DNA from: an uncultured Granulosicoccaceae bacterium
Lineage (GTDB): Bacteria > Pseudomonadota > Gammaproteobacteria > Granulosicoccales > Granulosicoccaceae
DNA: 64,000 nucleotides
NCBI GenBank assembly: GCA_938006335.1
Contig: CALLMF010000035.1
Location: 1-64,000, forward strand
Direction of reading: 5' to 3'
Shown: positions 7,849 to 31,241 of the stretch, one piece after another
Layout of the letters: each line of letters opens with the position of its first letter
Position numbering within the stretch: the stretch's first letter is position 1
Program-made: the position numbers and the translations under genes
Notes under the pieces: model-generated
Told to the model about the DNA's origin: nothing
Seen by the model: the letters and a program-made list of their open reading frames with translations, nothing else
Databases searched by the model: none

Positions 7849-7855
7849 GTGGCAG

Positions 7856-11725: not shown

Positions 11726-12353
11726 GCGCCCAGAAGATATCGAGGTTGAACCACGAGCGGGAGATGAACTTCAGTCCGAGCCAGCGGTGCACGGCAACGG
11801 CGAGTACAGCACCTGATACCGTCATCGCAACCGTATGCACAAGCGCAACGGTAAACGCCGTCATCACGCTGCTGTCGATCAGCGCTTGAGCCGCGGCGTG
11901 GCCATGCCCCATGACCGTTGTCTGCGGGCCGACGTAACGGCAGAGCTCGAGATAGATCGGAACCAGCATCAGTCCGGCGCCATGGGCCATCGCTGCGAGA
12001 AAAGACCACCAGGCAAGGCGCGCAGGGTGCACTCGGGAGAGAAATCGTGGGTGCTTGCGATTGATCAGCAGGTAGATGCCCATTCCGATGACGATGATGC
12101 CGGCACCCATCCGGATCTCTGTTTCCCGCTGTACGAGAAACACCATCATCGAGAACGGCAACAGGATTGCGAGCATCGCCAGGAAGTGCCCGAGACCGAG
12201 CATCGCGATGGCCTTGGTCATCGCTCCACGTTTGCGGTCCATCAGGGCTGCGGATACGGCGAGGGGCCAACCCATGCCCGGGTTGACCCCATGGTAGACA
12301 CCCGCGACAACAACTGCCCACCACAGTGTCGTCACGGTGCTCGCATCAAACAT
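11670..12353 (-). CDS. Polytopic membrane protein of unknown function, linked to methanethiol oxidase
   Basis: A 227-residue protein with about six membrane segments. I do not recognise the family with confidence. Conserved-looking elements are YHGVNPGMGWPLAV in the first segment, LGLGHFLAM in the second, MAHGAGLMLVPI in the middle and LVHTVAM later, giving two HG...GH-like pairs that hint at an internal duplication and at metal or substrate binding by histidines. It lies 23 bases downstream of the SBP56/methanethiol oxidase gene on the same strand, so the two are probably co-transcribed. A role in metal supply or export for that enzyme is only an inference. Its 3' end overlaps the xylanase gene. 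Confidence 0.75.
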   Translation of the reverse strand: MFDASTVTTLWWAVVVAGVYHGVNPGMGWPLAVSAALMDRKRGAMTKAIAMLGLGHFLAMLAILLPFSMMVFLVQRETEIRMGAGIIVIGMGIYLLINRKHPRFLSRVHPARLAWWSFLAAMAHGAGLMLVPIYLELCRYVGPQTTVMGHGHAAAQALIDSSVMTAFTVALVHTVAMTVSGAVLAVAVHRWLGLKFISRSWFNLDIFWALSLVVVGAFGIYSAHAGH

Positions 12354-12376
12354 CTAGCGCACGTGCGTGGCGGATG

Positions 12377-13783
12377 TCAGACCGACGGATAACAGAAACT
12401 ATCCGTCGAGCAGTCACCACCCTCCAGGCGGATCTGATGCGCGCGTAGACCTTTCGGGAAGTCGATGTAGAAGTCCGGGTCCAATGCAAAGCTGCCGTCG
12501 TCGCCCACTCGTGCCATCACCATCTGACCACCTTCCTCATCGGGATAGAACTGATCATCCCAGGTCGAGTACAAGGAGTTGGTCCAGTAGACACGCTTGC
12601 CATCTCTACTGATTTCCACCATCTGCGGACCGTACACGACAGGTTTGCCATTGGGATGCCTGGCCCCTTTGGCGATGCCCCCGAGCTCCACCTTGCCGTT
12701 GAGAACAGGATTGAATGGATCCGACACGTCGTACTGATGCATCTCACCGAGGCCCCAGCACGCGACGTAGAGATACTTGTCGTCAAGGCTCAGATCGATA
12801 TCGGTCACCAGCGGCGGCACGGCACTGAAGCCCTTGAGAAGCTCCGGCAGGTTTTCAGGATCTTCCGGGCGCGGATCAATGGTGATGACCTTCTTGGACT
12901 GCCAATTGCCATCATCATCACGCCACCAGGTAAAGATGGCGCCTTGCAGATTGGTCGTGTCGACAACCACACCGCAGAATCCGTAGGTTCTGGTCGGATC
13001 GTGGGCAGGACGAATCTCGAGAGCCATCTGGTACTGCTCCCCAAAATCCATGGTGTGGACGTTCTTGCGTGCCCGCAAATCCCAGAAGTGAATCGAGTGA
13101 CCGTACTTGTTACTCAACAGATCTTCAGGGACAACCCCGTTTTCGAATTGCGGGGGCAGGCCCCACTCCGAGCTGACCATGTAGTCCTGCGGCAGGTTCC
13201 ACCAGAAATCGTAGTGCTTGTCCTGCTTGCCGCGATCCATCTCGTAACGACCGATGATCTCGAAGGTCTGGCAATCCATGATGAAGATGCCGGGCGGACC
13301 ATCGGTACCGTCAGCGCCGCCACCGCCAAGGGTGGACACGTAGATGCCTTCCGGTCCGCAGTGGATGGTGTGAGGACGCGAGTAACCGGTCTTCTCGAAC
13401 ACTTCTTCCGGCTCGATGATCTTGTGGATCTTTGCCTTGAGTGGCTCCTTCACGTCGATGACGTACACGCGTGATGAACGTATCCCGGGAACGATGAGGT
13501 AACGACGCTCGAGAAAGGCATGCCCGGACAGTGGTGATAGCGATGACGAACAGGCATTCCAACCGAAGTGATGAAACTCATCGCCCTTGTATGGCGTGGT
13601 CACGGTGTGCACGATCTCACCGTAGGTATCAGAACCGGTACGAAGGTCCACGACCGCTATGCCGTCCGATTGGCTGCCGTCCGGACTCAACATCACGGTA
13701 AAGGCAAAGTTCTCTATCGGGGCTTCCATCGCAATCCGTGGCGATGGATAGAAGGTCGGGTCCGGCTTCAGATTGGCGCTCAT
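12377..13783 (-). CDS. SBP56 family selenium-binding protein / methanethiol oxidase
   Basis: A 468-residue SELENBP1/SBP56-family protein. Bacterial MtoX members are copper-dependent and oxidise methanethiol to formaldehyde, H2S and H2O2. Clear family blocks are YSRPHTIHCGPEGIYVSTLG, YDFWWNLPQDYMVSSEWGLP, YGHSIHFWDLRARKNVHTMD, DIDLSLDDKYLYVACWGLGE and the HQIRLEGGDCSTD end. The His residues in these blocks are the presumed metal ligands. I chose the ATG at 13783, preceded by GAGGAAG, rather than the far upstream start at 13876. With that start there is no obvious signal peptide, whereas characterised MtoX is periplasmic. The neighbouring divergent gene is glutathione-dependent formaldehyde dehydrogenase, which fits formaldehyde production. 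Confidence 0.9.
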   Translation of the reverse strand: MSANLKPDPTFYPSPRIAMEAPIENFAFTVMLSPDGSQSDGIAVVDLRTGSDTYGEIVHTVTTPYKGDEFHHFGWNACSSSLSPLSGHAFLERRYLIVPGIRSSRVYVIDVKEPLKAKIHKIIEPEEVFEKTGYSRPHTIHCGPEGIYVSTLGGGGADGTDGPPGIFIMDCQTFEIIGRYEMDRGKQDKHYDFWWNLPQDYMVSSEWGLPPQFENGVVPEDLLSNKYGHSIHFWDLRARKNVHTMDFGEQYQMALEIRPAHDPTRTYGFCGVVVDTTNLQGAIFTWWRDDDGNWQSKKVITIDPRPEDPENLPELLKGFSAVPPLVTDIDLSLDDKYLYVACWGLGEMHQYDVSDPFNPVLNGKVELGGIAKGARHPNGKPVVYGPQMVEISRDGKRVYWTNSLYSTWDDQFYPDEEGGQMVMARVGDDGSFALDPDFYIDFPKGLRAHQIRLEGGDCSTDSFCYPSV

Positions 13784-14174
13784 TGACTTCCTCGAGTTCT
13801 CCAAGTGGATGTCCCCTTGTGTGGGGGCCTGTTGTTCTGTCAGTCCTGCATGCACCACCGATATGCCCAACGACAACAGGCGCTACAACCTTCGCCACAC
13901 CAGGATTGATCTCCTGATCACACTCGGTTGCAAGCCTCTATCTCGAATCAGCTCGATATTCGCGTCCAGCTCCGAGCGACGGGTGCATGTCAGATCGGTT
14001 CAGCGGGTTGGCGTACCGTCAAGAATCGCTGCTGAAATTCAACCTCCGCAAAGGCAGCGACAGGCGTGAAAAACGGCCACGCATGACAAGACGATGTACC
14101 ATGATTCGAGACGCGAACGCAACGAGTTTGGGGTGCGGTAGCACCGTGGCCCCCGCTACACACAGGAGATCATC
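13784..14174. promoter_or_regulatory. Divergent promoter region between methanethiol oxidase and formaldehyde dehydrogenase genes
   Basis: These 391 bases lie between two divergent genes and must hold both promoters, but no ORF here is convincing. Close to frmA, at 14132-14145, a small hairpin (GGTGC, loop GGTA, GCACC) sits in the leader about 30 bases before the start. The frmA ribosome-binding site AGGAG is at 14164-14168. I see no recognisable FrmR-type operator. Confidence 0.45.
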
Positions 14175-15287
14175 GTGAGAACACGCGCAGCAGTTGCGGT
14201 GGCCGCAGGCCAGCCGCTGGAAGTCATGGAAGTCGAGCTCGATGGCCCCCGCGCGGGTGAGGTGCTGGTCGAAATCAAGGCGACCGGCCTGTGTCACACC
14301 GATGAATTCACACGCTCCGGAGATGATCCGGAAGGCATCTTCCCTGCCATCCTCGGGCATGAGGGGGCCGGTGTCGTCATCGAAGTCGGGGCGGGCGTGA
14401 CCTCACTGGAAGTCGGTGATCATGTGATTCCGCTGTACACCCCTGAGTGCCGGGAGTGCGAGTACTGTCTGCATCCCAAGACCAACCTGTGCCAGAAGAT
14501 TCGATCGACTCAGGGACAAGGCCTGCTGCCGGATGGCTCGACACGCTTCTCGATGCTCGATGGCACGCCGATCCATCACTACATGGGGTGCTCGACATTT
14601 GCCAATCACACGGTTGTACCCGAGATTGCACTGGCCAAGGTGCGCAAGGACGCCCCTTTCGACAAGATCTGCTACATCGGGTGTGGCGTGACCACGGGTA
14701 TCGGCGCCGTCATCAACACCGCCAAGGTGGAGATTGGTTCAAGGGGTGTCGTTTTCGGACTCGGGGGGATCGGGCTCAACGTCATTCAAGGCTTGCGGCT
14801 CGCAGGGGCAGACCAGATCGTCGGTGTTGACCTCAACGACGGCAAGGTCGAGATGGCGAAGCATTTTGGCATGACCGACTTCGTCAATCCATCCAGGATC
14901 GACGGGGATCTTGTCGCCCACCTGGTCGAGCTCACCGGTGGCGGCGCTGACTACACCTTTGACGCGACCGGCAACGTCGATGTCATGCGTACCGCACTCG
15001 AATGTGCCCACAAGGGTTGGGGGGAGAGCATCATCATCGGCGTAGCGCCGGCAGGTGCCGAGATCAGTACTCGACCGTTCCAACTGGTGACCGGGCGATC
15101 ATGGCGCGGTACGGCTTTTGGTGGCGCAAAGGGACGTACCGATGTGCCCAGGATCGTTGATTGGTACATGGATGGCAAGATCGAGATCGACCCGATGATC
15201 ACGCACAAGCTGACACTCGACGAGATCAATCACGGGTTTGATCTGATGCACGAAGGGAAATCCATCCGTGCCGTGGTCGAGTTCTAG
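14175..15287 (+). CDS. frmA: S-(hydroxymethyl)glutathione dehydrogenase / class III alcohol dehydrogenase
   Basis: A 370-residue zinc-dependent class III ADH that oxidises the formaldehyde-glutathione adduct with NAD+. It has the catalytic zinc site (TGLCHTDEF, LGHEGAGVV, ICYIGCGVTTG), the structural zinc cysteines (PECRECEYCLHPKTNLC), the Rossmann motif GLGGIGLNVIQG and the class III signature GGAKGRTDVPRIVDWYMDGK. The start is a GTG with AGGAG seven bases upstream. It is divergent from the methanethiol oxidase gene and would detoxify the formaldehyde that enzyme makes. Confidence 0.96.
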   Translation: MRTRAAVAVAAGQPLEVMEVELDGPRAGEVLVEIKATGLCHTDEFTRSGDDPEGIFPAILGHEGAGVVIEVGAGVTSLEVGDHVIPLYTPECRECEYCLHPKTNLCQKIRSTQGQGLLPDGSTRFSMLDGTPIHHYMGCSTFANHTVVPEIALAKVRKDAPFDKICYIGCGVTTGIGAVINTAKVEIGSRGVVFGLGGIGLNVIQGLRLAGADQIVGVDLNDGKVEMAKHFGMTDFVNPSRIDGDLVAHLVELTGGGADYTFDATGNVDVMRTALECAHKGWGESIIIGVAPAGAEISTRPFQLVTGRSWRGTAFGGAKGRTDVPRIVDWYMDGKIEIDPMITHKLTLDEINHGFDLMHEGKSIRAVVEF

Positions 15288-15308
15288 GTCAGCCGGAACA
15301 CGGACCCC

Positions 15309-15348
15309 GCGGTGGTGCAGTCGTCAGTGTTTGCAACCGCACCACCGC
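15309..15348. terminator. Strong hairpin between convergent frmA and ureD
   Basis: A perfect 10-base-pair stem: GCGGTGGTGC at 15309-15318 pairs with GCACCACCGC at 15339-15348 across a 20-base loop. It directly abuts the ureD stop codon and lies 22 bases past the frmA stop. There is no long T tract on either strand, so it may act as a bidirectional terminator or a 3' end stabiliser rather than a classic intrinsic terminator. Confidence 0.55.
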
Positions 15349-16188
15349 TTACACGTACCACACGCGTGGTACGTCTTGCCCACGGTTCAGCAGCGACAGC
15401 ATCGGAATGATGCAAGCGCGGAGGCGGACCGAATCAGGGGCGACCACGCGTATCAGCAAGCGTCCCGGCAAGACACTGACTCCGCAGTACCGCATCGCCT
15501 GTTGATCCAGGGTCTGCTTGACTCGTTGCGCGGATCGCGATAGCTGCTCATCGTCCAGCGACGCACACCACACGATGGTGGCAATGGCACGGCAACCCTC
15601 GGCGCCACCCAGTCCTGCGACATTGCTCGGATCACCCAGGTCGGTAGCGGCGTTGATATCGAGCGCTTCAGCATGAACCAGCGCGCCATCGCGCCGTATT
15701 CTCCACTGATCGCGCACACGCCCATGACGGACCTGTTCGCCCGATGCGCCACGGCCAAAGACCAGCGCTTCGCATAGCAGGCAGGTCGCATCGCCGTGCA
15801 GGTCAACGTCAAGTGTGCGTGACAACATTGCGCCATCGAACACGATGGTCTCCTGCGGTAACCACGCAAGCGTCGCGCCATTCGCGGCCGAAAGGCGGGT
15901 GTCTTGACGAGCAAACGGCCCATGGCTGCGGTACGCCTTTTCAGAGGCCGCTGTGCTGACCGTCAACGCCGCGTTATCGTCCACGACGCAGGTCCATTCG
16001 ACAGCATCGTCGCCGGTGAGCCCACCTGCGGTATTGATCAGTACCGCGTCGAGAGCGGCGCCCATTGCTCTCGGCAAGCGCACCTTGGCGCCGCCTCGCT
16101 GATCGAGGCGCGCGAGCACGGACCGCCCATCGCGATCACGTGCATCAACCCGCGCGCTCGAATCCACGCGCTGTCTGACGACGTCCAC
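15349..16188 (-). CDS. ureD: Urease accessory protein UreD
   Basis: A 279-residue UreD (UreH), the accessory protein that binds apo-urease with UreF and UreG and channels nickel. Family blocks include RGGAKVRLPRAMG, AVLINTAGGLTGDDAVEW, ALTVSTAASEKAYRS, ATLAWLPQETIVFDGA and LCEALVFGRGASGE. The start is a GTG at 16188 with a weak ribosome-binding site. It is about 7.2 kb from ureA. It sits 21 bases after the large transglutaminase gene on the same strand, so it appears to be the last gene of that operon. Since ureABCEFG lacks a local ureD, this copy probably serves that urease. Confidence 0.93.
   Translation of the reverse strand: MDVVRQRVDSSARVDARDRDGRSVLARLDQRGGAKVRLPRAMGAALDAVLINTAGGLTGDDAVEWTCVVDDNAALTVSTAASEKAYRSHGPFARQDTRLSAANGATLAWLPQETIVFDGAMLSRTLDVDLHGDATCLLCEALVFGRGASGEQVRHGRVRDQWRIRRDGALVHAEALDINAATDLGDPSNVAGLGGAEGCRAIATIVWCASLDDEQLSRSAQRVKQTLDQQAMRYCGVSVLPGRLLIRVVAPDSVRLRACIIPMLSLLNRGQDVPRVWYV
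15353..15374. repeat. Second hairpin inside the ureD 3' end
   Basis: ACGTACCAC at 15353-15361 and GTGGTACGT at 15366-15374 form a perfect 9-base-pair stem with a four-base loop (ACGC). It lies within the last codons of ureD, next to the stronger hairpin at 15309-15348. Together they make a tandem stem-loop between two convergent genes. Confidence 0.5.
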
Positions 16189-16209
16189 GACGCTCGCTAG
16201 CCGGACGGT

Positions 16210-19200
16210 TCAGCCGCCTCGCTGAAACGAGCGGTGTCGTCGCAAGTCTGCCGTCATCGGAAACTCTTCTGATGTGGTCAGTGGCTCAGCGTGTACCACG
16301 CGCTCGGCCGCTGGCATCTCTTCAAAACGCACACCGCTCTCATGAACAGGAGTGGTGATGTGCGCGGCTTCCACGGTGTGGCGGTCTGCCTCAAAGCGTG
16401 CCAGGCGGCGCGACTCGGCGACGTTGGCATTGACCGGCACGTCGTCGTAGCTGCGCCCACCGGGATCTGACACATGGTAGGCACAGCCGCCGAGACTGCG
16501 GTTACTCCACGTGTCGACGATATCGAAGATCAGTGGTACGTCGACCGGCAGGTCAGGATGCAGGCAGTGCGGTGGCTGCCATGCCCGGTAGCGAACACCC
16601 ACCACGTATTCACCAGCTTTGCCGGTTGACTTCAAGGGCAATCGGCTGCCGTTGCATCGGATTTCGTGTCGGCCATCCACCATACCGCTGACCTTCACTT
16701 GTATGCGCTCCATTGAGGAGTCCACGTACCGCGCCATACCACTGCCTGATGCTTCCTCGCCAAGCACATGCCAGGGTTCGATCGCGGCGCGCACTTCAAG
16801 ACTGACACCGTCTATCACGCGCGTGCCGAACACGGGAAAGCGGAATTCGACAAACGCATCGAACCACGAGGCATCGAAGGGGAGGCCGTGGCGTTGCAGG
16901 TCGGCCACAACGTCGGCAAGATCCGCTTCGAGGTAGTGCGGCAGCATGAAGCGATCGTGTAATTCAGTTCCCCAGCGGATCAATCGCCCCTTGTAGGGGT
17001 TCTCGGCAAAGCGAAGCACCAATGCGCGCACCAGCAGCGCTTGTACGATCGCCATGCGCGCATGCGGCGCCATCTCGAAAGCTCGTAGCTCGACGATACC
17101 GAGGCGCCCGGCAGGTCCGTCTGGAGAGTAGAGCTTGTCAATACAGATCTCGGCACGGTGCGTGTTGCCCGTCAGATCGATCAACAGATTGCGTAACAGT
17201 CGATCAACCAACCAGGGTTTCCCTTCGTTGCCTTCGGGCAAGCGCGACAGCGCAAGCTCGAGCTCGAACAAGGTCTCGACACGTGCTTCGTCGACGCGGG
17301 GCGCCTGGCTGGTCGGCCCAACGAACATGCCTGAAAACAGGTAGGACATGCACGGATGATGTTGCCACCAGGTGATCAGGCTTCCGATCATGTCCGGGCG
17401 ATTGAGAAACGGGCTGAGTTCTCTGCTCGGACCGCCAAGGGTGACGTGGTTGCCACCGCCCGTACCCGTGTGTCGCCCGTCCACCATGAACTTTTCTGCT
17501 GTCAGGCGACAGTGCGCTGCAGCCTCGTACAAGGTTTCGGTGCGTTCGACCAACTCGGCAAACCGCTTGCTCGGGTGTATGTTGACTTCGACCACGCCGG
17601 GGTCAGGCGTGATACGAAAAGAGGTAAGGCGCGGGTCGTGCGGTGGCTCATAGCCCTCGAGGATGGGTCGTAGACCGGTCTTCGAGGCAGATTCTGCAAG
17701 GACGTTGATCAGCTCGACCCATGCGCCTGCACTGCGCAGCGGCGGCAAGAACACATACAAGGCCTTGTCGCGCACTTCGACGCACAAGGTAGAACGGATG
17801 ACGCGTTCGGCAGGCTCGGCCTGTGCGCTGAGCGAGGTTCTTGCGTCAGGGAACGGCGCGTCACGCGCATCGTCCTCTTCGGGGAACTGACGAGCGTCTG
17901 CATCGGCCTCGTCCTGATCGGGCAGACTGTCGAGGGGAAGTCGAAGCCCGGCCGGAGAATCACCCGGAACCAGGAACACCTCGTCGCGACGCAGGGGCCA
18001 GACACCCGAGCGCCAATGCCCTGCGTCCTTTTCCAGCGGCAGCATGTAGCCGACGGCCCGGCCAAGCCCACGTTCGAGCATCTCGACCAGACGACGTCGT
18101 GAGCGACTGTCATCAAGATCCAAACCATCAAGTGACTCTGCGGGAGGCAACAGACTTTCCAGATGCAAGGCGTGCAATGGATCCTCGTACAATCCACGTC
18201 GCCCATCGCTGGATACGCCGAATGCTTCGATGACCGTATCGATCAGACGTCTTGCATCATCCTCAGTCGCATCGGCGTGGACTTCTCCGGGCAGGGCAAA
18301 GGCATCGGCATGTGAGGTGATGGCCTCACCGTCGGTGCGCCAATGACAGATGAGTGCCCATCGTGGTGTGGGTTCACCGGGGTACCACTTGCCCTGAGCG
18401 AAGCTTGCAACCCCGTTGGGAGCAAAGGCATCGCGCAAGCGCGAGTGAAGCGCTACCGAACGGTCGAGCTTGTGTTCTCCGAGCGCGGCCTCGTTCCATT
18501 CAGCCGACTCGAAATCCTCGCTCGACACGAAGGTAGGCTCGCCGCCCATCGTCAGGTGTACACCCGCAGCGTCGAGTCGCTGATCCACCGTCTCGCCCAG
18601 TGCCAATACGCGCTGCCAGGTGAGGTCATCATAGGGCAGGGTGACGCGCGGTCGCTCGTCAAAACGCGTGACGCGATTGTAGAAGTCAAAGTCGGTGGCC
18701 GGCGCGCTGGCTATCCCCGATATGGGAGCAGCACTTGATGGCAGCGGCGTGCATGCCAGCGGGATATGACCCTCACCAGCAAACAAACCGGACGTCGGAT
18801 CGAGGCCCACCCAACCCGCACCGGGTACGTACACCTCAGCCCAGGCATGCAGGTCGGTAAAGTCTGCCTCGGGACCGCCTGGACCTTCGACAGATTTGAT
18901 GTCGGGTACCAGCTGCACGAGATATCCGGACACGAAGCGCGCGGCAAGGCCGTAGTGGCGCAGAATCTCAACCAGCAACCAGCCCGAATCGCGGCAGGAC
19001 CCACTGCACAGTTCCAGAGTGGTTTCGCTGTCCTGCACACCGGGCTCCATGCGCACGCGATAATCGATATCGGCTTCCAGCGCGCGATTGATCGCGACCA
19101 GCGCGTCGATGATGTGTTCATCACCTGGCTTGTTGGCATCGAGCCAGGCTTGCAAGCGTGTACCGGGAGGTGACGTCTCGCGGTATGGCGCAAGCTCACG

Positions 19201-19533
19201 GGCAAGTTCAGGGGTGTAGCTGAATCCGAAATGTTCAGCGTAGTCCTCGACAAAGAAATCGAAGGGGTTGATGACAGTGAGTTCGCAGACGAGGTCGACC
19301 GCGACTTTCAGTTCCTTCACCGGCTCCGGGAAGACCAACCGTGCCAGCCAGTTGCCAAAGGGGTCCTGCTGCCAGTTGATGAAATGCCCGGCCGGCTGGA
19401 TGTCCAGGGAGTAGCTAAGGACCGGTGTGCGGCAGTGCGGGGCGGGACGTAAGCGCACAACGTGAGGCGCAAGCGTAACGGGTGCGTCGTATCGATAGTG
19501 CGTTACATGGTCTAGGGCGACCTTGATGCTCAT
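16210..19533 (-). CDS. Transglutaminase-like protein fused to DUF2126
   Basis: A 1107-residue protein. Residues about 1-90 are the bacterial transglutaminase-like N-terminal domain. Residues about 140-260 hold a papain-fold transglutaminase core with a complete triad: Cys180 (CSGSCRDSGW), His229 (LHAWAEVYVPG) and Asp245 (GLDPTSGLF). The rest is the DUF2126 region (for example YPGEPTPRWAL, LGGPSRELSPFLNRPD, GLDPTSG-distal blocks and RAAIEPWHVLGEE). No signal peptide is seen, so it is probably cytoplasmic. The family is thought to be a peptidase or amidotransferase acting with ATP-grasp partners. Its ATG overlaps the preceding gene by ATGA. Substrate is unknown. Confidence 0.9.
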   Translation of the reverse strand: MSIKVALDHVTHYRYDAPVTLAPHVVRLRPAPHCRTPVLSYSLDIQPAGHFINWQQDPFGNWLARLVFPEPVKELKVAVDLVCELTVINPFDFFVEDYAEHFGFSYTPELARELAPYRETSPPGTRLQAWLDANKPGDEHIIDALVAINRALEADIDYRVRMEPGVQDSETTLELCSGSCRDSGWLLVEILRHYGLAARFVSGYLVQLVPDIKSVEGPGGPEADFTDLHAWAEVYVPGAGWVGLDPTSGLFAGEGHIPLACTPLPSSAAPISGIASAPATDFDFYNRVTRFDERPRVTLPYDDLTWQRVLALGETVDQRLDAAGVHLTMGGEPTFVSSEDFESAEWNEAALGEHKLDRSVALHSRLRDAFAPNGVASFAQGKWYPGEPTPRWALICHWRTDGEAITSHADAFALPGEVHADATEDDARRLIDTVIEAFGVSSDGRRGLYEDPLHALHLESLLPPAESLDGLDLDDSRSRRRLVEMLERGLGRAVGYMLPLEKDAGHWRSGVWPLRRDEVFLVPGDSPAGLRLPLDSLPDQDEADADARQFPEEDDARDAPFPDARTSLSAQAEPAERVIRSTLCVEVRDKALYVFLPPLRSAGAWVELINVLAESASKTGLRPILEGYEPPHDPRLTSFRITPDPGVVEVNIHPSKRFAELVERTETLYEAAAHCRLTAEKFMVDGRHTGTGGGNHVTLGGPSRELSPFLNRPDMIGSLITWWQHHPCMSYLFSGMFVGPTSQAPRVDEARVETLFELELALSRLPEGNEGKPWLVDRLLRNLLIDLTGNTHRAEICIDKLYSPDGPAGRLGIVELRAFEMAPHARMAIVQALLVRALVLRFAENPYKGRLIRWGTELHDRFMLPHYLEADLADVVADLQRHGLPFDASWFDAFVEFRFPVFGTRVIDGVSLEVRAAIEPWHVLGEEASGSGMARYVDSSMERIQVKVSGMVDGRHEIRCNGSRLPLKSTGKAGEYVVGVRYRAWQPPHCLHPDLPVDVPLIFDIVDTWSNRSLGGCAYHVSDPGGRSYDDVPVNANVAESRRLARFEADRHTVEAAHITTPVHESGVRFEEMPAAERVVHAEPLTTSEEFPMTADLRRHRSFQRGG

Positions 19534-22076
19534 GTGTCCGAAAGTTCTCTGTCATCTTTGCTGGCGTGAGCATCGGCACCCAGGTCCGTCGCTTCGGACT
19601 GGCGCGGGGGGAAATACGCATCCGCGATTGCATCGCCGACCGCATACAGCCGAAGTTGCAACTCATCGATATAGTTGTGCAAGGCAAACCGGTCTTCGGC
19701 GAGTTCGTCAAGATCGGCGTCATCAATAGCGGCCATGACTTCGTCGAGAGCCGCATTCGGAACATCGGCATTACCAAGCTGCCGCAGGCAGGAACGGATG
19801 CGCTCCATGCAGTATCGCCACGATCGTGGCAGGTGCGGGTCATCGAGCAGGTAGTGCAGTACCGGCACGCCATCTATCGGATGGTTGACGTGCAAGCGAT
19901 ACATTCGCAGTGCTCTCAGCGAGGACAATACCGCGATCCACTCTCGCTCGGCGATGCTGGCAGGTAGCTTTTGCTCGCTACCCATCAGACTCTGGGAGCG
20001 AACATCGAGCACGCGCGATGTCATGTCGGCGCGCTCGAGGTGAATACCGAGTCGCATGGTCAGCCAGCCGGCACCGCGGCTGAGACTACCGTCAATCTGA
20101 CCGGCCAGAGCCAACAGGCTTTGCTCGACGGAGGCAAGAAATCGGGCACGCCTCGGATCGGCTGCTGCCGTCGGTGCCTCCACGCGTATCACACGGCACA
20201 GTGAATTGAATGACTCGTAAACACTGGCAGGCAGAAATTCACGAGTGCTGCGCAGCGTCACGTGCATCGACCTTGCGAGATTCAGCAAGGACCCTGGGTT
20301 GTCTTCCTCACCGATCAGAAAGTGACACACACCACGTTCGTCAGGGCTGGCCCCGGTACGCTCGAAGTCGGCCTCACTGCCGCTGATCAATACCAGAGAG
20401 GACCAATCAATGCCGCGGTGATCGTTGCCAAGATCCATCATCAAGCGACCATGTTCTCCGATCAGCTTGACGGTGCATTCCGCGCGCTCCAGGTAGCGAC
20501 CCAGCCAGAAGAGATCTTCGGCGTTGCGTGACAGCAGCCGATTGCTGTAGAGCTTCAGATCGCTGTCCGCTGCCCGTTGACGTTGTGGGCTATTCGCAGA
20601 CGGGCGCCGTCGGCTCCGTCGCTCGTGAGCGGTATCAACCGGTCCATTCGGGTACTCAACGTCGACCACCCAGGTGTCCTTGCTGCCCCCACCCTGGGAA
20701 GAGTTGACGACCAGTGATCCCTCACGGAGCGCAACACGGGTCAGCCCTCCGGTCGACACCGAAAGGTTTTCTCCTTGCAGCACGAAAGGACGAAGATCCA
20801 CATGCCGCGGACCGATCTGATCGTCGACCACGGTCGGTGTGGTGGAAATTGCAAGCGTGGGCTGCGCAATCCAGTTGCGTGGCTCCTTGCGTATGGCACT
20901 GGCCGTCGCCTCACGTTCCTGCTCGGATGCGTGAGGGCCAATCATCAGGCCGTAGCCGCCCGATTCGTTGGCCGGCTTAACGACCAGTTGATCGAGGTGA
21001 TTCAACACATATTCACGCTGCTCGGTATCGTCGCAGCGGTAGGTAGGCACGTTGTTGAGCAGTGGTTCCTCATCAAGGTAGTAGCGGATGATGTCGGGCA
21101 CGTAGGCGTACACCACCTTGTCATCGGCAACGCCCGAGCCTGGAGCATTGGCTATGGCGACACGCCCGGCTTTCCATGCCCGCATCAGTCCCGCCACACC
21201 GAGCATCGAGTCGGGATTGAATACTTCCGGATCGATGAAGGCATCATCAACGCGGCGGTAGAGAACGTCGATGCGATGCAGGCCGTCGACATTGCGTACG
21301 CAAAGCTCGTCATCGTCGGTGACGACAAGATCACGCCCCTCGACCAGCTCGGCGCCAATTTGCTGCGCAAGAAACACGTGCTCGAAATAGGCGCTGTTGT
21401 AGATGCCCGGCGTGAGCAAGGCGAGTTGCGGCTCACTTTGATCACTCAGCGAGCGTAGTGTGCGTTGCAGCAAGCTTGGGTAACCGTCGACAGGACGTAC
21501 ACGGCAAGCGCCAAACACCTCGGGTAGGCAACGCTTCATGATCTCGCGGTTTTCGATCATGTACGACACACCGGATGGTACGCGCAAATTGTCCTCGAGC
21601 ACGTACAGCTCGCCGCCCTCGTCCCGCACCAGATCGGAGCCGCAGATGTGCGCCCATACACCATGGGGTGGGCTGATGCCGCGGCAGGCTTGGAGGTAGT
21701 TGGATGAGCTGTCGATGATGGCGGCCGGAACAATGCCATCTCGAATGATGTCCCGATCGTGGTAGAGATCATCGATGAACATGTTCAGTGCCTCGAGGCG
21801 CTGAGTAAGACCCGTACTGATGTCGTTCCACTCAGCGCCGTCGATGATGCGCGGGATGATGTCGAAGGGCCACTCGCGGTCGATGTTTCCTTCCGATGAA
21901 TAGACCGTGAAGGTAATTCCCATCTGCCGAATGGCACGTTCCGCATCGGCTCGCCGCTCGTCCCTCCCATCGGCGCCGAGCGCACTCATGAGCTTTACCA
22001 GCTCCTCGGCTGCTTGCCTCGGTATACCGTCGTTACCGATCAGTTCATCCCAGGTCGAACTTTGGTAACCGTCCAT
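19530..22076 (-). CDS. Circularly permuted ATP-grasp / alpha-E domain fusion (canonical copy)
   Basis: An 848-residue fusion. Residues about 1-480 form a circularly permuted type 2 ATP-grasp domain (DUF404/DUF407) with the expected motifs: YVLEDNLRVPSGVSYMIENR near 158-177, IANAPGSGVADDK, VVKPANESGGYG with Lys367, and VNSSQGGGSKDTWV. Residues about 505-835 are an alpha-E (DUF403) helical domain beginning LLSRNAEDLFWLGRYLERAE. In other genomes these domains can be separate genes; here they are fused. ATP-grasp enzymes activate carboxylates for amide or peptide bond formation, but the substrate of this family is unknown. The motifs look intact. It is preceded by the smaller transglutaminase gene after 10 bases. 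Confidence 0.9.
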   Translation of the reverse strand: MDGYQSSTWDELIGNDGIPRQAAEELVKLMSALGADGRDERRADAERAIRQMGITFTVYSSEGNIDREWPFDIIPRIIDGAEWNDISTGLTQRLEALNMFIDDLYHDRDIIRDGIVPAAIIDSSSNYLQACRGISPPHGVWAHICGSDLVRDEGGELYVLEDNLRVPSGVSYMIENREIMKRCLPEVFGACRVRPVDGYPSLLQRTLRSLSDQSEPQLALLTPGIYNSAYFEHVFLAQQIGAELVEGRDLVVTDDDELCVRNVDGLHRIDVLYRRVDDAFIDPEVFNPDSMLGVAGLMRAWKAGRVAIANAPGSGVADDKVVYAYVPDIIRYYLDEEPLLNNVPTYRCDDTEQREYVLNHLDQLVVKPANESGGYGLMIGPHASEQEREATASAIRKEPRNWIAQPTLAISTTPTVVDDQIGPRHVDLRPFVLQGENLSVSTGGLTRVALREGSLVVNSSQGGGSKDTWVVDVEYPNGPVDTAHERRSRRRPSANSPQRQRAADSDLKLYSNRLLSRNAEDLFWLGRYLERAECTVKLIGEHGRLMMDLGNDHRGIDWSSLVLISGSEADFERTGASPDERGVCHFLIGEEDNPGSLLNLARSMHVTLRSTREFLPASVYESFNSLCRVIRVEAPTAAADPRRARFLASVEQSLLALAGQIDGSLSRGAGWLTMRLGIHLERADMTSRVLDVRSQSLMGSEQKLPASIAEREWIAVLSSLRALRMYRLHVNHPIDGVPVLHYLLDDPHLPRSWRYCMERIRSCLRQLGNADVPNAALDEVMAAIDDADLDELAEDRFALHNYIDELQLRLYAVGDAIADAYFPPRQSEATDLGADAHASKDDRELSDT

Positions 22077-22086
22077 CGTGAGAACG

Positions 22087-23007
22087 TTAGCGTGGTGTCA
22101 GTGTTGAAATACGGAAATCGTCGCTGGACTCTGGTAAGCGGTCCACATCGACAGCAACCGCCAGCTCCTGCTTGCCTCCACCGTACACTACGCCGCGCAG
22201 TGGAGCCACATCGCCATAGTCGCGTCCCCACGCGGTAGTGACGTACTGCTCGTCGGGTCGCTTGTTGTTGGTGGGGTCGAAATCGACCCAATGACCATCA
22301 CCGTTGTAGACCGAGAACCACGCGTGTGACGCATCAGCGCCGCGTAGTTTTTCGACACCTGGCGGGGGCAGTGTCTCGAGATAGCCACTGACGTAGCGCG
22401 CGGGAATTCCGAGTTTTCTGCACGCAAGGATTGCCACGTGCGCAAAGTCCTGGCACACCCCGCGACGAGCATCAAGTACGTCGTCCAGAGGGGTCGCGAC
22501 ATTGGAATAGCCGGGGTCATACTTGAACGTGCTGAAGATGTGATTGGTCAGGCGCTCTGCAAATGCCAGTACCCCATGGCTGGATTCAGCGTTGACGTCG
22601 AGTTCATGCAGCAAGGCAGCGGGGTCAGATGACGCGGTCACCAGCCGAGAAAACAGACGAAACTCCTCAGCAAGCAACATGTCCTGTCCGTGGCGCGCAG
22701 CCAGTACCGCTGCGAGTTCAACGATCGAGCAATCTGCCGGCAAGGGTGGCGGTGGCAGGGTATTGACCTGAGATACGGCAACGATCTCGGCACGATCGTG
22801 TGGCACTGCAAAGTCGAACAGGACGATGTGGTTGCCGTAGCGATCCACAACGGACTGTTCATCATCCGGCTCCGGGTGGATGGACAAGCGCGATGACAGA
22901 CAGGTCTGTTGAGGCGTGTCCCGGGGCGTAAGGCACGCCCGAGTGACCGCCTGGGTTGCGTGAGCGTCGTAGGTAAATCGTGTTCTATGGGAGACGGCAA
23001 GCTTCAT
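22087..23007 (-). CDS. Transglutaminase-like cysteine protease family protein
   Basis: A 306-residue protein with an N-terminal transglutaminase-like beta domain (about 1-80, VSHRTRFTYDAHATQAVTRA) and a papain-fold core. The triad is complete: Cys185 in RRGVCQDFAHVAI, His228 in DASHAWFSVYNG and Asp244 in VDFDPTNNKRP. It lacks a signal peptide. The ATG overlaps the preceding ATP-grasp gene as ATGA. Family members are predicted to be peptidases or amidases and recur next to ATP-grasp/alpha-E genes. Which bond it cuts or makes is not known. Confidence 0.92.
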   Translation of the reverse strand: MKLAVSHRTRFTYDAHATQAVTRACLTPRDTPQQTCLSSRLSIHPEPDDEQSVVDRYGNHIVLFDFAVPHDRAEIVAVSQVNTLPPPPLPADCSIVELAAVLAARHGQDMLLAEEFRLFSRLVTASSDPAALLHELDVNAESSHGVLAFAERLTNHIFSTFKYDPGYSNVATPLDDVLDARRGVCQDFAHVAILACRKLGIPARYVSGYLETLPPPGVEKLRGADASHAWFSVYNGDGHWVDFDPTNNKRPDEQYVTTAWGRDYGDVAPLRGVVYGGGKQELAVAVDVDRLPESSDDFRISTLTPR

Positions 23008-25637
23008 GTGCCATCCAGTTTGGTCACCGTACCCTGGCCCAACTCGCTGCGCGACTCCACATGTGTAAAAAATCGCGTCGTCAGTTCCGTGGACAACTGG
23101 TCGGGCAGGGTTTCAAGCACACCGAGAAAGCGGTTGAGTGACTGACGTTGGCTACGATCGGTGTTGACCAGTGACGATGCCTCGGCAAGACGCACGCGAC
23201 TGAGTCCTGCAGCCGCCAGCCTCGTCATGGCATTGCTCGGTCGATGCGCGCTGGCGGAACCCGCAAGCAAGGCGACGAGTCTGTCGATCTCCTGAAACTG
23301 GAATGCCAACGATCGTGGATTAGCCTCGTCAAGCACGAGCAGGTGAATGCTGAAGTGCGGCTCGATGCGGCTGCGATAGCGCGAACGGTAGGTCATGACG
23401 CTATCAAACAACTTGAGTGCAGCCTCCAGCACGCGACTGTCATGCAACTCGTGTTCGGTGAGACTTCTCAGTGCGCGCGAGCTGAGTGCCGCGCGCGCCA
23501 CACGACGCCCGAGCATGAGAAAGTGCCAACCCTCACCGTGCGTGAGATTTTCGTGCATCAGGCCTGTGAGCGCTGCCATGCGGCCGAGGACGTTGTCGAG
23601 CTGCAAGGCGCGTTTTTCCAGCGTGTCAGGATCCCTTGCCGGTTCCAGTCGGGCAGGCTCCATCCCGTTGGTTACGGCACTGAGCTCGTTGAGCACGAGA
23701 AGCTGTTCGGGTGAAATGCGATCACGCAAGGTGCGCGCGTTGAAGTCGAGCTGACGCAGTGCTGCAGGCAGGGAGCCTGGCTGAGCAGGATCGTTGAACA
23801 GCCGACTGAGTTCGCGGTCAGGCTTGCGCAAACGGCTTGCGGCACCACGGCCTACAAAACCTGGAACAGCTCCGCAGGCAACGCTGGTCGCTCGTAGTAA
23901 CGCTGCGAGGGACGCAGAGGGTGCCTGCTCGACCTGCGGGCGGTCCTCGTCCTGCATTTCGTGAATGACACCGCGTAGCAGTCGTGCCGTGAATTCGAGG
24001 CGCTCTGCGTTGCGTCCGAACCAGAAGAGGTTCTCGGCGACTCGGCTCGGCAACTCACCCTCGATGAGCGCGTAGTCTGCTTCGGTCGGTGTATTGACCA
24101 GCAGACTGTCGTTGTCCACCGCGGTATCCGAGAGCACCCAGACATCCTTGCTACCGTCGACTTCAGCAAAGCTCTGGCGACGCCCGCCGCGATCGTTGTC
24201 GAGCAGCCCGAGCCCACCGGTCAGCACTTCGGCAGGACGTGCGGTGCTGGTGCCGAGGCATTCATTGACAGCGTGCAGGCGAACCGTCAGTTGGCGACGC
24301 CGAAACCCATTCGCATCCAGCACGGGCACCACCGAGCGGTCCACGCGCTCCTGGGCCACGTAGCGCATCGGATCGAGCGCCATGCTGGCGATCAGTTGCT
24401 GTCGCGCACGGGTATCGAGCAACGTCGGATCCAGAAGGGCTCCATGTGTGCGTATGTCGCGAAACAACAGTTCGTCCACTCTCTGGCTGACGTGTTCATA
24501 GTGCTCGGCTTCACCCAGCCAGTAGGTCGGTGCTCCGCTGAGGATCAGAGGCTCGCCCAGCAAGCGCTGCGACAGGGCGGGCAAGTACGCGTTGAGCGCC
24601 GGATTGCCCACGACTGAAGCGCCTGGGGGATTGATGACCCGCACCGTGCCTTCACGCACTGCGTGCATCAAGCCGGGGAGACCACGGCTACCATCGGCGT
24701 CGCTGGTCAGCGAGTCCAGCATGGAATCGGGCAGAAACCGCAGGATGACGTCGACGCGCTGCAAGCCTGACACCGTGCGCAGGAAAACACGCCCACTCCG
24801 CACGGTCAGGTCCCCGAGCTCCACCAGCGTGTAACCGAGGTACTTGGCAAGCCAGGCGACCTCGAACGGATGCGGATCGCTGGCGCCACGACCTAACAGG
24901 ACACAACGTGCATCGCGATCCACGCTGTCGGCAACCAGGGCCTGCAGCGCTCGAAAGTAGCCCGCGAGCCGCTCGACGCGGCCTTGCCGAAATAACCGCG
25001 GGAGTACCCGCGACAACACCAGCCGATTTTCCAGGGTGTAGCCAAGCCCCTCCGGGAAGGCGGTGACGTCGTCGGCGACATACCAGTCGCCGGACGGCGA
25101 GCGCGACACATCCATGCCGTAGAGAGGCAGGTGCCGACAAGCCTCTACACCGACAGCATCGCGCAGATAGCCCGGATGCGAGAACACCAGCGACGGTGGC
25201 AGCACACGATCAGCCAACAGATGTTGATCACCGTAGATGTCGGCGAGGAGCTTCTGCATCAGCCGTCCACGTTGAACAAGGCCTTCACTCAAGCGCTGCC
25301 AATCGGCAGGTTCGATGACCATCGGCACCAGATCCAATGGCCACGGTCGTGCCTCGTCGTCGACCCCGGATGCGGGACTGCGTGGATCAGCGGTGCCGCC
25401 CGGGCCGTTGAAGCCGATGCCATTGGCGCGCAACAAGCGCTCGATTTCCGCCCGGCGTGATGCCTGGCCCGTGTCGCCCAGCGATTCCAGGCGCTCGAGC
25501 ACGAAGGCCCATCCAGCTCTCGGCGAACCGTCAGCGTCCAGCGTTTCATCGAATCGCTGATGATCGGACTCATCAAACGATCGACCGTCAGGTGACGGTA
25601 CGGGCGGGGTCGTCATACTCATCAAGTGATCTTGCAC
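23004..25637 (-). CDS. Circularly permuted ATP-grasp / alpha-E domain fusion (divergent copy)
   Basis: An 877-residue paralogue of the protein at 19530-22076, with the same order: ATP-grasp-like region (about 40-520) then alpha-E (about 535-860, [20 protein letters not shown]). Key ATP-grasp motifs have changed. The ED-N-LRVPSG block reads [14 protein letters not shown] (187-200), and the KPANESGGYG loop aligns with [15 protein letters not shown] (about 391-405), losing the Lys and glycine pair. It may not bind ATP as usual and could be a partner or regulator of the canonical copy. It is the first gene of the operon. ATGs at 25637, 25622 and 25616 are all possible starts. Confidence 0.85.
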
Positions 25638-25856
25638 CGTGAGCGGCGCGAACTGGCGGACTCTGAATTATCCGCCACGAATGAGGCCTGTCGGCACGCC
25701 AGGCATCAGCGACACGGAACGGCCGGAAGGTGGAGCGCGACGTCGAGGCATCTGCGGCGTATCATACGGCTCCTTCGGATTGAACGCGACGCGTGCCCTG
25801 GTCGCGCCGCGTCCCACCTTCAACATGACTTGAGCCATCTACGGACACGATATCGC

Positions 25857-27164
25857 ATGAGCATTGCCGACCTCGCCAGAGTTGACGGCGTTTCAAACGA
25901 GTTTTTCCTGAGTGATCTGGCCGAGTCGGATCCCGCTGTTCAAGCCGCCATAGACGCTGAACTGGGCCGGCAGCGCCACGAAATCGAGCTGATTGCATCC
26001 GAGAACATCGTGAGCCGCGCGGTAATGCAGGCGCAGGGCTCGGTCATGACCAACAAGTACGCTGAGGGTTACCCTGGCAAGCGCTACTACGCCGGTTGCG
26101 AACATGTCGACGTCGCCGAATCCCTGGCCATCGAGCGGGCGTGTTCGTTGTACGACTGCGCGTTTGCCAATGTGCAGCCCCATTCGGGTGCCCAGGCCAA
26201 CCAGGCGGTGTTCCTTGCGCTCCTGCAGCCTGGCGATACCTTCATGGGAATGGACCTCGCCGCGGGTGGTCACCTGACGCATGGCTCACCGGTCAATCTG
26301 TCCGGCAAGTGGTTCAATGCGGTGACCTATGGCGTTGATCGCGAATCGCATCTCATCGACTACGACGCGCTTGAAGCGACTGCGCGCGAGTGCAAGCCCA
26401 AGCTCATTCTGGCGGGCGGCTCGGCCTATCCCCGTACCATCGATTTTGCGCGTTTTCGAGCCATAGCCGATGCGGTGGGTGCCTATTTCATGGTCGACAT
26501 GGCGCATTTCTCCGGACTGGTCGCTGGCGCTGAGCACCCGAATCCGCTCAAGCATGCGCACGTGGTGACCACCACCACCCACAAGACACTGCGCGGCCCG
26601 CGAGGCGGGATGATCCTCAGCAACGACGCCGATCTCGGCAAGAAGTTCAACTCCGCGGTATTCCCGGGCTTGCAAGGCGGTCCGCTGATGCATGTGATCG
26701 CTGCCAAGGCGGTCGCGTTTGGCGAAGCTCAGCGCCCCGAATTTCAACAATACGTGGCGTCGGTCATTGCCAACGCCAAGGCGCTGGCGAGCACGCTGGT
26801 TGCAGGCGGGCTCGATATCGTCTCTGGTGGTACCGACACCCACCTGGTCCTGCTCGATCTTCAAACCAGGGGCGTCACCGGCAAGGCCACCGAAGCGGCA
26901 CTGACCCGCGCTGGTATTACCTGCAACAAGAATGCGGTTCCGTTTGATCCGCAATCGCCGTTCGTGACCTCTGGCGTACGTCTCGGAACGCCAGCGGCGA
27001 CCACTCGCGGCTTCGGCGCAGCCGAGTTCGAGCAGGTTGGCAAGATGGTTCTCGACGTGGTCGACGGTCTCGCCAGCAGCGGCGAAGAAGGCAATGCCGC
27101 CGTCGAGCAAGCTGTGCACAAGCGCGTCGTCCAACTGACTGACCGGTTTCCGATCTACGCATGA
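25857..27164 (+). CDS. glyA: Serine hydroxymethyltransferase
   Basis: A 435-residue PLP enzyme interconverting serine and glycine with tetrahydrofolate. It has the [11 protein letters not shown]-terminal motif, [29 protein letters not shown], the [19 protein letters not shown] block with the PLP lysine, and [11 protein letters not shown]. The frame extends upstream to 25626, but the ATG at 25857 gives the family length. The 219 bases between it and the divergent ATP-grasp operon show no glycine or THF riboswitch that I can recognise. A short-chain dehydrogenase gene overlaps its stop by four bases. Confidence 0.97.
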
Positions 27165-28529: not shown

Positions 28530-29390
28530 TCAGACGACGTGCCGATGCTTGGTCACCAGCAACCCGCGGCCGGGTGCAAGAAGAAACGCGATCACAAACA
28601 GCAGACTCATCAGCACGACGATGGTGGGCGCAGGTGCGCTGTCAATGTGATAGCTCGCGATCACTCCAATGGTGGTGCTGAGCACGGCAGTGGTCAATGC
28701 CACGAGTAACATCGTCTCGAATCGTGAAGTCAACAGCCAGGCGGTTGCTCCAGGGGCGATAAGCATCGCGATGACAAGGATGATGCCGACCGCTTCGATC
28801 GCCGCGACGATCACCAGGGAGAGCAGAGCGAGCAGGCCGTAGTGGAGCACCCGGGTGTTGAGACCGATCACGCCGGCGTGTTGCGGGTCGAAGGCAAACA
28901 GCATGAGATCGCGGCGAAACATCACGATGATGACAAACGCGGGCACAAGCATCACAGCTGCCGCCGCCACGTCGCTCCAGAGAACCCCGAGCATATCGCC
29001 GAACAGCACGTGATCGAGGTGCATGCCGGTCTCGATCTTCGTGAACAGGAAGACGCCGAGCGCAAACAGGCCACTGAACACGATACCCATGACCGTGTCT
29101 TCCTTGAGACGACTGTTTTCAGTCAGCCAGCCGGTAGATACTGCACACAACAAGCCCGTCAGGAAGGCGCCAATGACCAGAGGTATGCCGGCCAGCCATG
29201 CGAGGACAATGCCGGGTAGTACCGCGTGAGATACCGCGTCTCCCATCAAAGACCATCCCTTCAGGACAAGCAGACACGACAACACTGCCGCGCTGGCAGC
29301 GACCAGGAGCCCGATAGCCAGGGCTTGCTGCATGAAGTCGAAGGTCAGCGGCTCGACAATGAGCATCAGCGTGTCCATGACCTGATTCAC
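28530..29390 (-). CDS. Metal ABC transporter permease (MntB/SitD type), second copy
   Basis: A 286-residue ABC-3 family permease with about eight membrane segments. It has the family block LKGWSLMGDAVSHAVLPGIVLAW and the later AIEAVGIILVIAMLIAPGATAWLLT. It works as the partner of the permease at 29387-30241, whose stop it overlaps by ATGA. Together with the ATPase and the periplasmic binder it forms a four-gene SitABCD-like importer, probably for manganese. Confidence 0.93.
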   Translation of the reverse strand: MNQVMDTLMLIVEPLTFDFMQQALAIGLLVAASAAVLSCLLVLKGWSLMGDAVSHAVLPGIVLAWLAGIPLVIGAFLTGLLCAVSTGWLTENSRLKEDTVMGIVFSGLFALGVFLFTKIETGMHLDHVLFGDMLGVLWSDVAAAAVMLVPAFVIIVMFRRDLMLFAFDPQHAGVIGLNTRVLHYGLLALLSLVIVAAIEAVGIILVIAMLIAPGATAWLLTSRFETMLLVALTTAVLSTTIGVIASYHIDSAPAPTIVVLMSLLFVIAFLLAPGRGLLVTKHRHVV

Positions 29391-30241: not shown

Positions 30242-30257
30242 TTCCAGGAATACCGTG

Positions 30258-31241
30258 TCAGGACTTGCCGTCGTCGTAAACGACGAATGGTCGCTCGTCG
30301 TCGGTAATGACCGTGACCTGGCGTCGGTCGTCGTCTTCGTGAAGATCGGCGCCGCCAAGCACATGGAAGCGCAAAGTACCGCCGAACGCCTCCTGCAGGT
30401 TCTTCTGCGTGAACACGCGCTCGGTCTCTCCATGGTCGAGCACCGTCCCGTTGAGCAGCACCACCTGATCACAGAAGTGCGGAACGCTACCCAGGTTGTG
30501 GGTAGACACAAGAATCACACAACCTTCATCACGCAACTCGCGCAGCAAGGCAATGATGGCGTCTTCAGTGGTGACATCGACGCCCGTAAAGGGCTCGTCG
30601 AGCAATATCACTCGGCCCTGTTGGGCCAATGCACGTGCGAGGAAGACACGCTTTTTCTGGCCACCGGAAAGCTCGCCGATCTGCCGCTTGCGGTACTCGA
30701 GCAGATTCACCCGCTCGAGCGCCTGATTCACCATGGAGTGATCCTCGGTACTCGGCCTACGAAGCAAGCCCATGTGTCCGTACCTACCCATCATCACGAC
30801 ATCTTCGACCAGCACGGGAAAATTCCAGTCCACCTCCTCGCTCTGCGGAACGTAGGCGACGGTGTTCTTGCCAAGCGATCTCCCGGCCGGATGTCCAAGG
30901 ATCGACACGCTGCCACGAGCCAACGGCACCAGCCCCATGATGGACTTGAACAGGGTGGATTTACCGGAGCCGTTGACGCCGACCAGTGCGGCGATGGTCG
31001 ATGTCGGAATACAGAAACTGGCATCCTCGAGTGCCACATTGCCGTTGCGATACACCACCGACACCGCGTCGGCGACAAGTCCGTTACAGCCACCAGCGGC
31101 GTGCTGTGCGTCGCGTACGCGCTGGCGGTCTTCTACCGAATCGGCGACGCCACTGCCGTCTGCCGGAGACGCGCCCGCATCGCCGCTCGCTGCCGTGTAG
31201 TCTGCCGCTGCATCATGAACGGCGCTGGTGTCATCCCGCAT
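30258..31241 (-). CDS. Metal ABC transporter ATP-binding protein (MntA/SitB type)
   Basis: About 327 residues from the ATG at 31241. The ABC domain begins near residue 55 ([17 protein letters not shown]) and holds Walker [10 protein letters not shown], the signature [15 protein letters not shown], Walker [13 protein letters not shown] and the switch His in LVSTHNLGS. The first 50 or so residues are acidic and Ala-rich and absent from typical SitB proteins. The ATG overlaps the binding-protein stop by 11 bases, which supports translation from there, but a later GTG is possible. Confidence 0.92.

Follow-up and report, generated by a model that had tools for sequence, protein, structure and literature searches.

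The question raised by positions 15349 to 25637 of the window, the whole 64,000-nucleotide stretch analysed here from contig CALLMF010000035.1 (C35) of an uncultured Granulosicoccaceae bacterium (genome 3.8 Mb, completeness 93.75%), is what a compact row of predicted amide ligase and transglutaminase genes does for its host. Four large genes alternate on the minus strand: AG1 (23004-25637), a fusion of a circularly permuted ATP-grasp and an alpha-E domain (CP_ATPgrasp_2, 5.9e-105; Alpha-E, 1.2e-62); TG1 (22087-23007), a stand-alone transglutaminase-like protein (Bact_transglu_N and Transglut_core); AG2 (19530-22076), a second ATP-grasp/alpha-E fusion (7.8e-162 and 1.6e-67, respectively); and TG2126 (16210-19533), in which a transglutaminase core is joined to DUF2126, a putative second amide ligase (Bact_transglu_N, Transglut_core and DUF2126, the last at E = 0 and 1135 bits). 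As the initial annotation of this DNA described, AG1 and TG1 share a 4-base ATGA overlap, TG1 and AG2 are 10 bases apart, and AG2 and TG2126 again overlap at ATGA; this tight grouping of circularly permuted ATP-grasp, alpha-E and transglutaminase genes places the row among the DUF403/DUF404/DUF407/transglutaminase systems. The annotation counted only four genes in the interval and overlooked a fifth, which is the chief functional clue: ureD (15349-16188, minus strand), encoding the urease accessory/maturation protein UreD (PF01774, 6.5e-48), starts 21 bases downstream of TG2126 and is the last gene of the row. With slightly better than even confidence, we propose that the four genes form a nitrogen-stress cytoplasmic amide ligase/amidase module that, in this genus, has become the front half of the urease operon.

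To place the row among its relatives, 48 genomes of the family were searched for alpha-E (PF04168) and UreD, which were found in 30 and 34 genomes, respectively, and together in 23 (the alpha-E match in G003 lies below the family cut-off). In nine of these 23, alpha-E and UreD lie on one contig within 5 kb; the window's genus accounts for 15 of the 23, and all nine belong to it. A comparison of gene neighbourhoods, which the initial annotation had proposed, found the same families tightly grouped and, in seven genomes of the genus, an unbroken same-strand row of AG1, TG1, AG2, TG2126, ureD, ureA, ureB, ureC, ureE, ureF and ureG (G020, G021, where the contig ends inside AG1, G025, G027, G043, G044 and G045; G027 and G044 were taken to be the same as loci L003 and L004 and counted once). 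The alpha-E domain of AG2 is fused in G027 and forms a separate next frame in the other unbroken rows. The eighth row, in G024, retains fragments of AG1 and TG2126 and lacks TG1 and AG2, and its genes from ureD to ureG remain in position, which is either a natural deletion in which the urease was kept without the module or an assembly fault. Seen in its own locus (L085, G024:C44:21001-40000), that module is reduced at 9750-12053 to TG2126 and AG1 parts, with the serine hydroxymethyltransferase (SHMT) neighbour kept alongside ureD-ureG. The ninth linked genome is that of the window, where the row is split by an insert; in all eight others, ureD is contiguous with ureABCEFG. Compared with the window, the linked loci are 61-76% identical in TG2126 and 42-54% identical in UreD, and the closest named relatives that a DUF2126 scan gave are metagenome-derived genomes, likewise Granulosicoccaceae (L003, 77%; L004, 67%; L005, 62% identity).

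In the window, ureABCEFG (4015-8260) lies on the same strand as ureD and 7 kb away, so the urease operon is not contiguous here. The insert (8159-15308) comprises six frames, and none of the eight other linked genomes has it between ureD and ureA. A 15-gene run that is continuous in L003 is cut at this point in the window; the two loci also have divergent SHMT and SDR genes and a four-gene importer in common. Beyond the insert, all on the minus strand, are ureA (urease gamma, 7856-8158, start taken at the MQLTPREK codon), ureB (urease beta, 7537-7848), ureC (urease alpha, 5821-7533; PF00449, 5.4e-57), ureE (5369-5821), ureF (4708-5463; PF01730, 5.8e-26) and ureG (4015-4668). Names given without a profile scan are those of ureA (translation and position), ureB (position between ureA and ureC), and ureE and ureG (position and sequence); the products of all four have blastp partners in the rows of the relatives. 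We take the UreA name to be correct from its position and a familiar motif, and the UreC and UreF profiles confirm the urease neighbourhood. UreD and UreC each have a single match in the window's genome. Just after the ureD stop, between convergent genes, stands an inverted repeat (15309-15348) with 13-base arms that are 92% complementary, a possible transcription end despite the lack of a T run. Given this repeat and the insert, ureD in the window, and hence urease activation, would depend on the module promoter.

A second junction was found outside the family. In a phylum sample of 348 genomes, where the alpha-E and UreD places listed were compared by eye and the close pairs are a lower bound, at least one more genome brings alpha-E near to UreD: G358, assigned to another class by its kinship label, with 2.4 kb between the two starts. 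In this locus (L098), all on one strand, ATP-grasp, alpha-E, transglutaminase and Anbu are followed by ureD, ureA, ureB, ureC, two further frames and then ureE, ureF and ureG, with 2 bases between Anbu and ureD as the frames were called. The identity of Anbu is firm (PF00227, and PDB Anbu chains at 6.6e-77 or better). The module thus occurs immediately ahead of ureD in two distinct versions. Among the matches listed for the 150 genomes of the order of G358, no other tight alpha-E/UreD case was present. Looser pairs in G774 and G342 (about 9 and 11 kb apart) and pairs some 29-31 kb apart (G138, G117 and G643) were rejected as links, all being within our rough estimate of chance, and loci L104 to L107 were inspected and not counted. 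In a plasmid collection, five records had both AG2 and UreD among the matches listed (60 of 117 and 60 of 77, respectively), none with the two near each other.

The ureases at the two junctions are related, although the modules differ. UreD regions were fetched for 19 of the 25 unlinked family genomes with UreD (L110-L128), and a midpoint-rooted UreC tree of 31 rows (one a duplicate) splits the ureases of the family in two. The first clade (support 100/100) holds the linked genomes, G026, which has a partial row, G358 and its genus mate G756; the second holds the 18 other fetched family ureases. At all 18 second-clade loci, there are two permease-size and two ABC-ATPase-like frames ahead of ureD, on its strand, and in the one locus that was scanned (L116) these are UrtB, UrtC, UrtD and UrtE (NCBIfam). 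In G756, urtABCDE adjoins ureD on the opposite strand. For TG2126, a tree of 23 rows was built, from which the partial row of G024 (a very long branch in a first tree) was omitted in the second. The linked state as a single TG2126 clade was rejected (p-AU 8e-58); the tree can be explained either by an old fusion that was later lost in places or by several gains. Where linkage is missing within the TG2126 clade, the genome has the other urease type (G022, G023 and G034), no UreD that we could find (G006) or the same type elsewhere (G026).

The two families also keep company where they are not linked. Among 276 genomes drawn evenly from the class, for which a completeness of at least 90% was asked, UreD is present in 74, alpha-E in 84 and both in 46, against 22.5 expected (odds ratio 7.1, Fisher p 3e-11, kinship ignored here and in the other co-occurrence figures). 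Omitting the two genomes of the window's genus changes this little (44 of 274 with both, odds ratio 6.8), and the phylum sample behaves similarly (UreD 146, alpha-E 201, both 118 of 348 against 84.3 expected; odds ratio 6.0, p 7e-14). Catalase, used as a control (81 of 276), gave odds ratios of 1.7 with UreD (p 0.07) and 1.1 with alpha-E (p 0.77).

Published expression data, which we draw from excerpts of the papers cited throughout this report, point the same way. In Pseudomonas putida, PP_2685 (Anbu), PP_2688 (circularly permuted ATP-grasp), ureD and urtA rise by log2 4.0-4.4 on nitrate compared with ammonium (PMC8050072), PP2685-2687 and urease genes are raised under nitrogen limitation (PMC3325844), and in the wild type under nitrogen limitation PP_2686-2688 are up 11- to 15-fold, with urtA-D also up (PMC7801951). 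In Burkholderia cenocepacia, I35_5080-83 (DUF403, DUF404/407 and transglutaminases) fall by log2 6.0-9.4 when ntrC is mutated, and urease falls with them (PMC5491218). In P. pseudoalcaligenes, transglutaminases are raised along with urease (PMC8567248), and marine metagenomes show a correlation between urea domains and DUF403/404/407 (PMC3597751).

The most serious alternative is that module and urease are neighbours by chance: an ancient merging of operons within a single genus would have given them a shared promoter and no shared biochemistry. We regard this as possible, at appreciably less than even confidence. It gains from the rest of the family, where no alpha-E/UreD link was found in 14 of the 23 genomes with both (contig ends may hide some) and where ten fetched clusters (L091-L097 and L099-L101) have no urease beside the module in the stretch covered (for L092 this is TG2126 and alpha-E alone, and L097 stops 224 bases past TG2126); an eleventh locus, L102, has only an ATP-grasp and alpha-E pair. 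It also gains from G026, where the same type of urease lies apart from the module, and from G024, where ureD to ureG remain after the loss of most of the module. A mere merger sits less well with the persistence of the row over the deep divergence of TG2126 and UreD, with a different module version at the same junction in another class, and with the agreement of gene co-occurrence and published co-expression where there is no linkage.

The initial annotation mentioned a prediction from comparative genomics that these families make and break amide or peptide bonds; this is correct, and is the prediction of Iyer et al. 2009 as cited in passages of PMC6376114 and PMC5666114. It had also noted that one ATP-grasp has an intact nucleotide site. 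This is AG2, which keeps the loop K-P-A-N-E-S-G-G-Y-G, whereas AG1 lacks it, and an alignment of relatives (75 AG1 rows, window included, and 59 AG2 rows) extends the difference to both families. Loci L001, L002, L087 and L089, frames with stops and frames shorter than 700 or 420 residues were dropped beforehand. The GG[YH]G loop occurs in 55 of 59 AG2 rows, and with nucleotide loop and metal residues kept, AG2 has the hallmarks of a catalytic ATP-grasp; by eye, the four rows without the loop comprise an AG1-like one (L009) and three that seem to be alpha-E on its own (L011, L033 and L053). AG1 lacks these hallmarks: the window's own copy has no GGYG, LEDN, DLRP or VNSSQ motif, and the 75 rows have GG[YH]G in 0, an LEDN-type motif in 0, [DE]LRP in 1 and VNSSQ in 0, and yet KDxW and R453 are kept in 75 of 75 rows and D190 in 74. 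Because no sampled AG1 row has the nucleotide loop, its degeneracy is not a local loss, and AG1 is, as judged from these alignments, a non-catalytic or re-purposed ATP-grasp throughout the sample, a widespread pseudo-ligase for which the same absence favours a scaffold or regulatory role. The suggestion that duplicated components imply a two-step or heteromeric process therefore needs changing, since AG1 and AG2 are not equivalent to each other.

AG2 is closely related to a solved structure, 3n6x (2.8e-156). A model of AG2 (mean pLDDT 67.4, good over the ATP-grasp part) matched the folds of eukaryotic glutathione synthetases at around 1e-13 and of glutathionylspermidine synthetase/amidase at about 5e-8 to 4e-5; because the model is poor over alpha-E, we make no claim on the fold of that region. 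Besides the window's own sequence, the alignments used for modelling contained 20 of 36 available ATP-grasp rows, 20 of 32 alpha-E rows and 23 of 50 TG2126 rows.

Both transglutaminase cores have complete Cys-His-Asp sets, as first annotated, which we take to be the triads of these cores. With residues assigned by pattern, the set of TG1 (C185, H228 and D244) is conserved in at least 95% of 80 rows and that of TG2126 (C180, H229 and D245) in at least 98% of 96. TG1 has a phmmer match to 3isr, a 'putative cysteine protease' (1.1e-15), which the TG2126 model also matches (1e-9). The same TG2126 model (mean pLDDT 68.6) weakly resembles glutamine synthetase, the best Foldseek match being 5dm3 (E 8.5e-3, probability 0.99, TM by target 0.33). 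No sequence relative of DUF2126 was present in the PDB at E 0.01, and a literature search on DUF2126 found no paper. The earlier idea of a ligation-and-cleavage system is consistent with these predicted domains and model matches, namely the AG2 site, the glutathione synthetase fold, the weak DUF2126 likeness and the two triads.

Based on these assignments, AG2 would activate a carboxylate as an acyl phosphate and join it to an amine, like glutathione synthetase and glutathionylspermidine synthetase, while alpha-E may help to hold the substrate or a partner and AG1 may serve as a non-catalytic partner. DUF2126 may form a second amide bond at a glutamine-synthetase-like site, and the two Cys-His-Asp proteins would hydrolyse or transfer the amide again, such that an amine or peptide is carried as an amide and later released for use. 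Escherichia coli glutathionylspermidine synthetase/amidase and the gamma-glutamylamine pathways follow the same carry-then-release logic. All of this would take place in the cytoplasm; no signal peptide was seen by eye (no predictor was used). If ureD lies on the module transcript, urease would be matured when the module is made, and conjugate processing and urea hydrolysis would therefore deliver nitrogen together.

Several known systems resemble parts of this row. The DUF403/DUF404/DUF407/transglutaminase systems (Iyer et al. 2009, as cited) share its domains, tight order and predicted chemistry, but here there are two ATP-grasp/alpha-E fusions, one of them from a loop-less family, and the row runs into urease. 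The Anbu operon of Pseudomonas and Yersinia has ATP-grasp, alpha-E and transglutaminase in common with it and responds in print to nitrogen limitation, and its ATP-grasp from Y. bercovieri releases phosphate from ATP (PMC6376114); in the window, TG2126 and a second ATP-grasp/alpha-E fusion are present instead of Anbu, and it is the Anbu form that precedes ureD in G358. The urt-ureDABCEFG operon has the same urease gene order, whereas in the linked genomes the ligase module occupies the position of the urea importer and the urease is of a separate lineage. Glutathionylspermidine (E. coli) and trypanothione synthetase/amidases likewise pair an ATP-grasp ligase with a cysteine amidase, and the AG2 model matched these enzymes. 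The amidase of those enzymes is of the CHAP type, while the present row has a circularly permuted ATP-grasp, a transglutaminase-type amidase, and additional alpha-E and DUF2126. The families and the peptide-ligase prediction are thus already known, and the urease fusion was not found in print in the accessible parts of the papers searched. The matches listed bear on a urease link through the metagenome correlation (PMC3597751) and shared expression, and no report of a module-urease operon fusion was among them, which is weak evidence of absence because most subscription literature lies outside such a search, and excerpts of PMC12542648 contain nothing on the link.

A number of observations weigh against a nitrogen-stress module that forms the front half of the urease operon. 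In the class set, UreD is missing from 38 of the 84 genomes with alpha-E, so the module can do without urease; alpha-E in turn is missing from 28 of the 74 genomes with UreD, so each can occur without the other. The co-occurrence figures are, in addition, blind to kinship. Nitrogen control is known in print for Pseudomonas and Burkholderia and is a prediction for the window's genus. PP_2685 (Anbu) itself is hardly induced in wild-type P. putida (1.12-fold, PMC7801951), and the Anbu operon was unchanged under various other conditions (PMC5666114). No convincing sigma-54 -24/-12 site precedes AG1 in a simple GG-N8-10-GC scan of ten upstream regions, in which the only two matches, in the window and L093, scored 8/12. 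DUF2126 is weakly like glutamine synthetase. Outside the genus, G358 was the one genome in which close linkage turned up, and its urease is of the linked lineage; the pairs in G774 and G342 are at about the level of chance. Lastly, the link between ureD and ureABCEFG is broken in the window, where a single transcript is inferred from gene spacing.

The other explanations differ in what the module would do. In one, the module supplies urea: it would couple an imported basic amino acid, or a related amine, into a conjugate and then cleave this, releasing urea or a precursor of it. The module occupies the usual place of the urea importer before ureD, a place that the double ATP-grasp/DUF2126 and Anbu versions would have taken seemingly independently. 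A four-gene ABC importer of the lysine/arginine/ornithine/histidine type (784-4072, minus strand, below the NCBIfam equivalog and subfamily cut-offs) follows ureG in the window and, among the linked rows, otherwise only in L003 (= L087); what it imports may be a clue to the substrate of the module. What weakens the urea-supply explanation is the large number of alpha-E genomes lacking UreD, together with urea transporters in most Granulosicoccus genomes, a kelp study reporting the transporter in 6 of 8 genomes, urease in 8 of 8, and the transporter also in G. antarcticus (PMC9238374), and we consider it rather unlikely. Scarcely different in our estimation, and also improbable, is protein tagging and turnover for nitrogen starvation, with the transglutaminase-like proteins (and Anbu elsewhere) acting as proteases. 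Such a role has been hypothesised for the Anbu operon (PMC6376114, PMC5666114) and would suit its induction under nitrogen limitation (PMC3325844, PMC8050072, PMC7801951). However, no Anbu was found in the window's genome assembly (93.75% complete), the only proteasome-family match (PF00227) being, by eye, HslV-like and beside an HslU-like frame, and Anbu proteins had no amidase activity on the substrates tested and no detected specific interaction with operon proteins (PMC6376114). Finally, maturation or modification of urease itself, such as a peptide tag or a change to UreD or UreC, would explain why two module versions directly adjoin a maturation gene, and is very improbable given the genomes that have either family alone and the intact ureD to ureG of G024 beside a mostly deleted module.

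On the other side of AG1, and not claimed as part of the system, lies a divergent SHMT gene (25857-27164, plus strand; PF00464, start estimated), which also adjoins AG1 in every other linked locus but L084, where the sequence ends too early to show it (7 of 8). Between the two genes, at 25638-25856, is a TCTATTATGCC-like element that is conserved across the genus; its direction is unclear, and it may serve the divergent SHMT gene. Within the insert are a GH10 xylanase (9908-11725), an SBP56 protein (12377-13876), a class III alcohol/formaldehyde dehydrogenase (14175-15287, above the NCBIfam cut-off) and three frames without a Pfam match. The insert frame at 11491-12324 has a low third-position GC (0.49, compared with 0.63-0.78 in 19 other measured frames). 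Elsewhere in the window are two consecutive ABC permease genes of the zinc/manganese metal type (28530-30511), a diaminobutyrate-decarboxylase-like pyridoxal phosphate enzyme adjoining an M20 peptidase (34482-37141), a glycogen cluster (43836-53864; branching enzyme, synthase, GlgC-like, phosphorylase and debranching-like) and an exopolysaccharide cluster with Wzy-like and Wzc-like proteins (55494-63797).

Alpha-E is widespread, being present in well over half of the sampled phylum genomes (201 of 348), and the ligase system to which it belongs had a computational prediction without a substrate that we could find. The occurrence of the second ATP-grasp type as a conserved loop-less copy alters how reconstitution should be attempted. 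The row with urease points to a role in nitrogen scavenging, and because it exists physically in two versions, there is now a definite test: a metabolite of nitrogen starvation that needs the module for its making or breaking.

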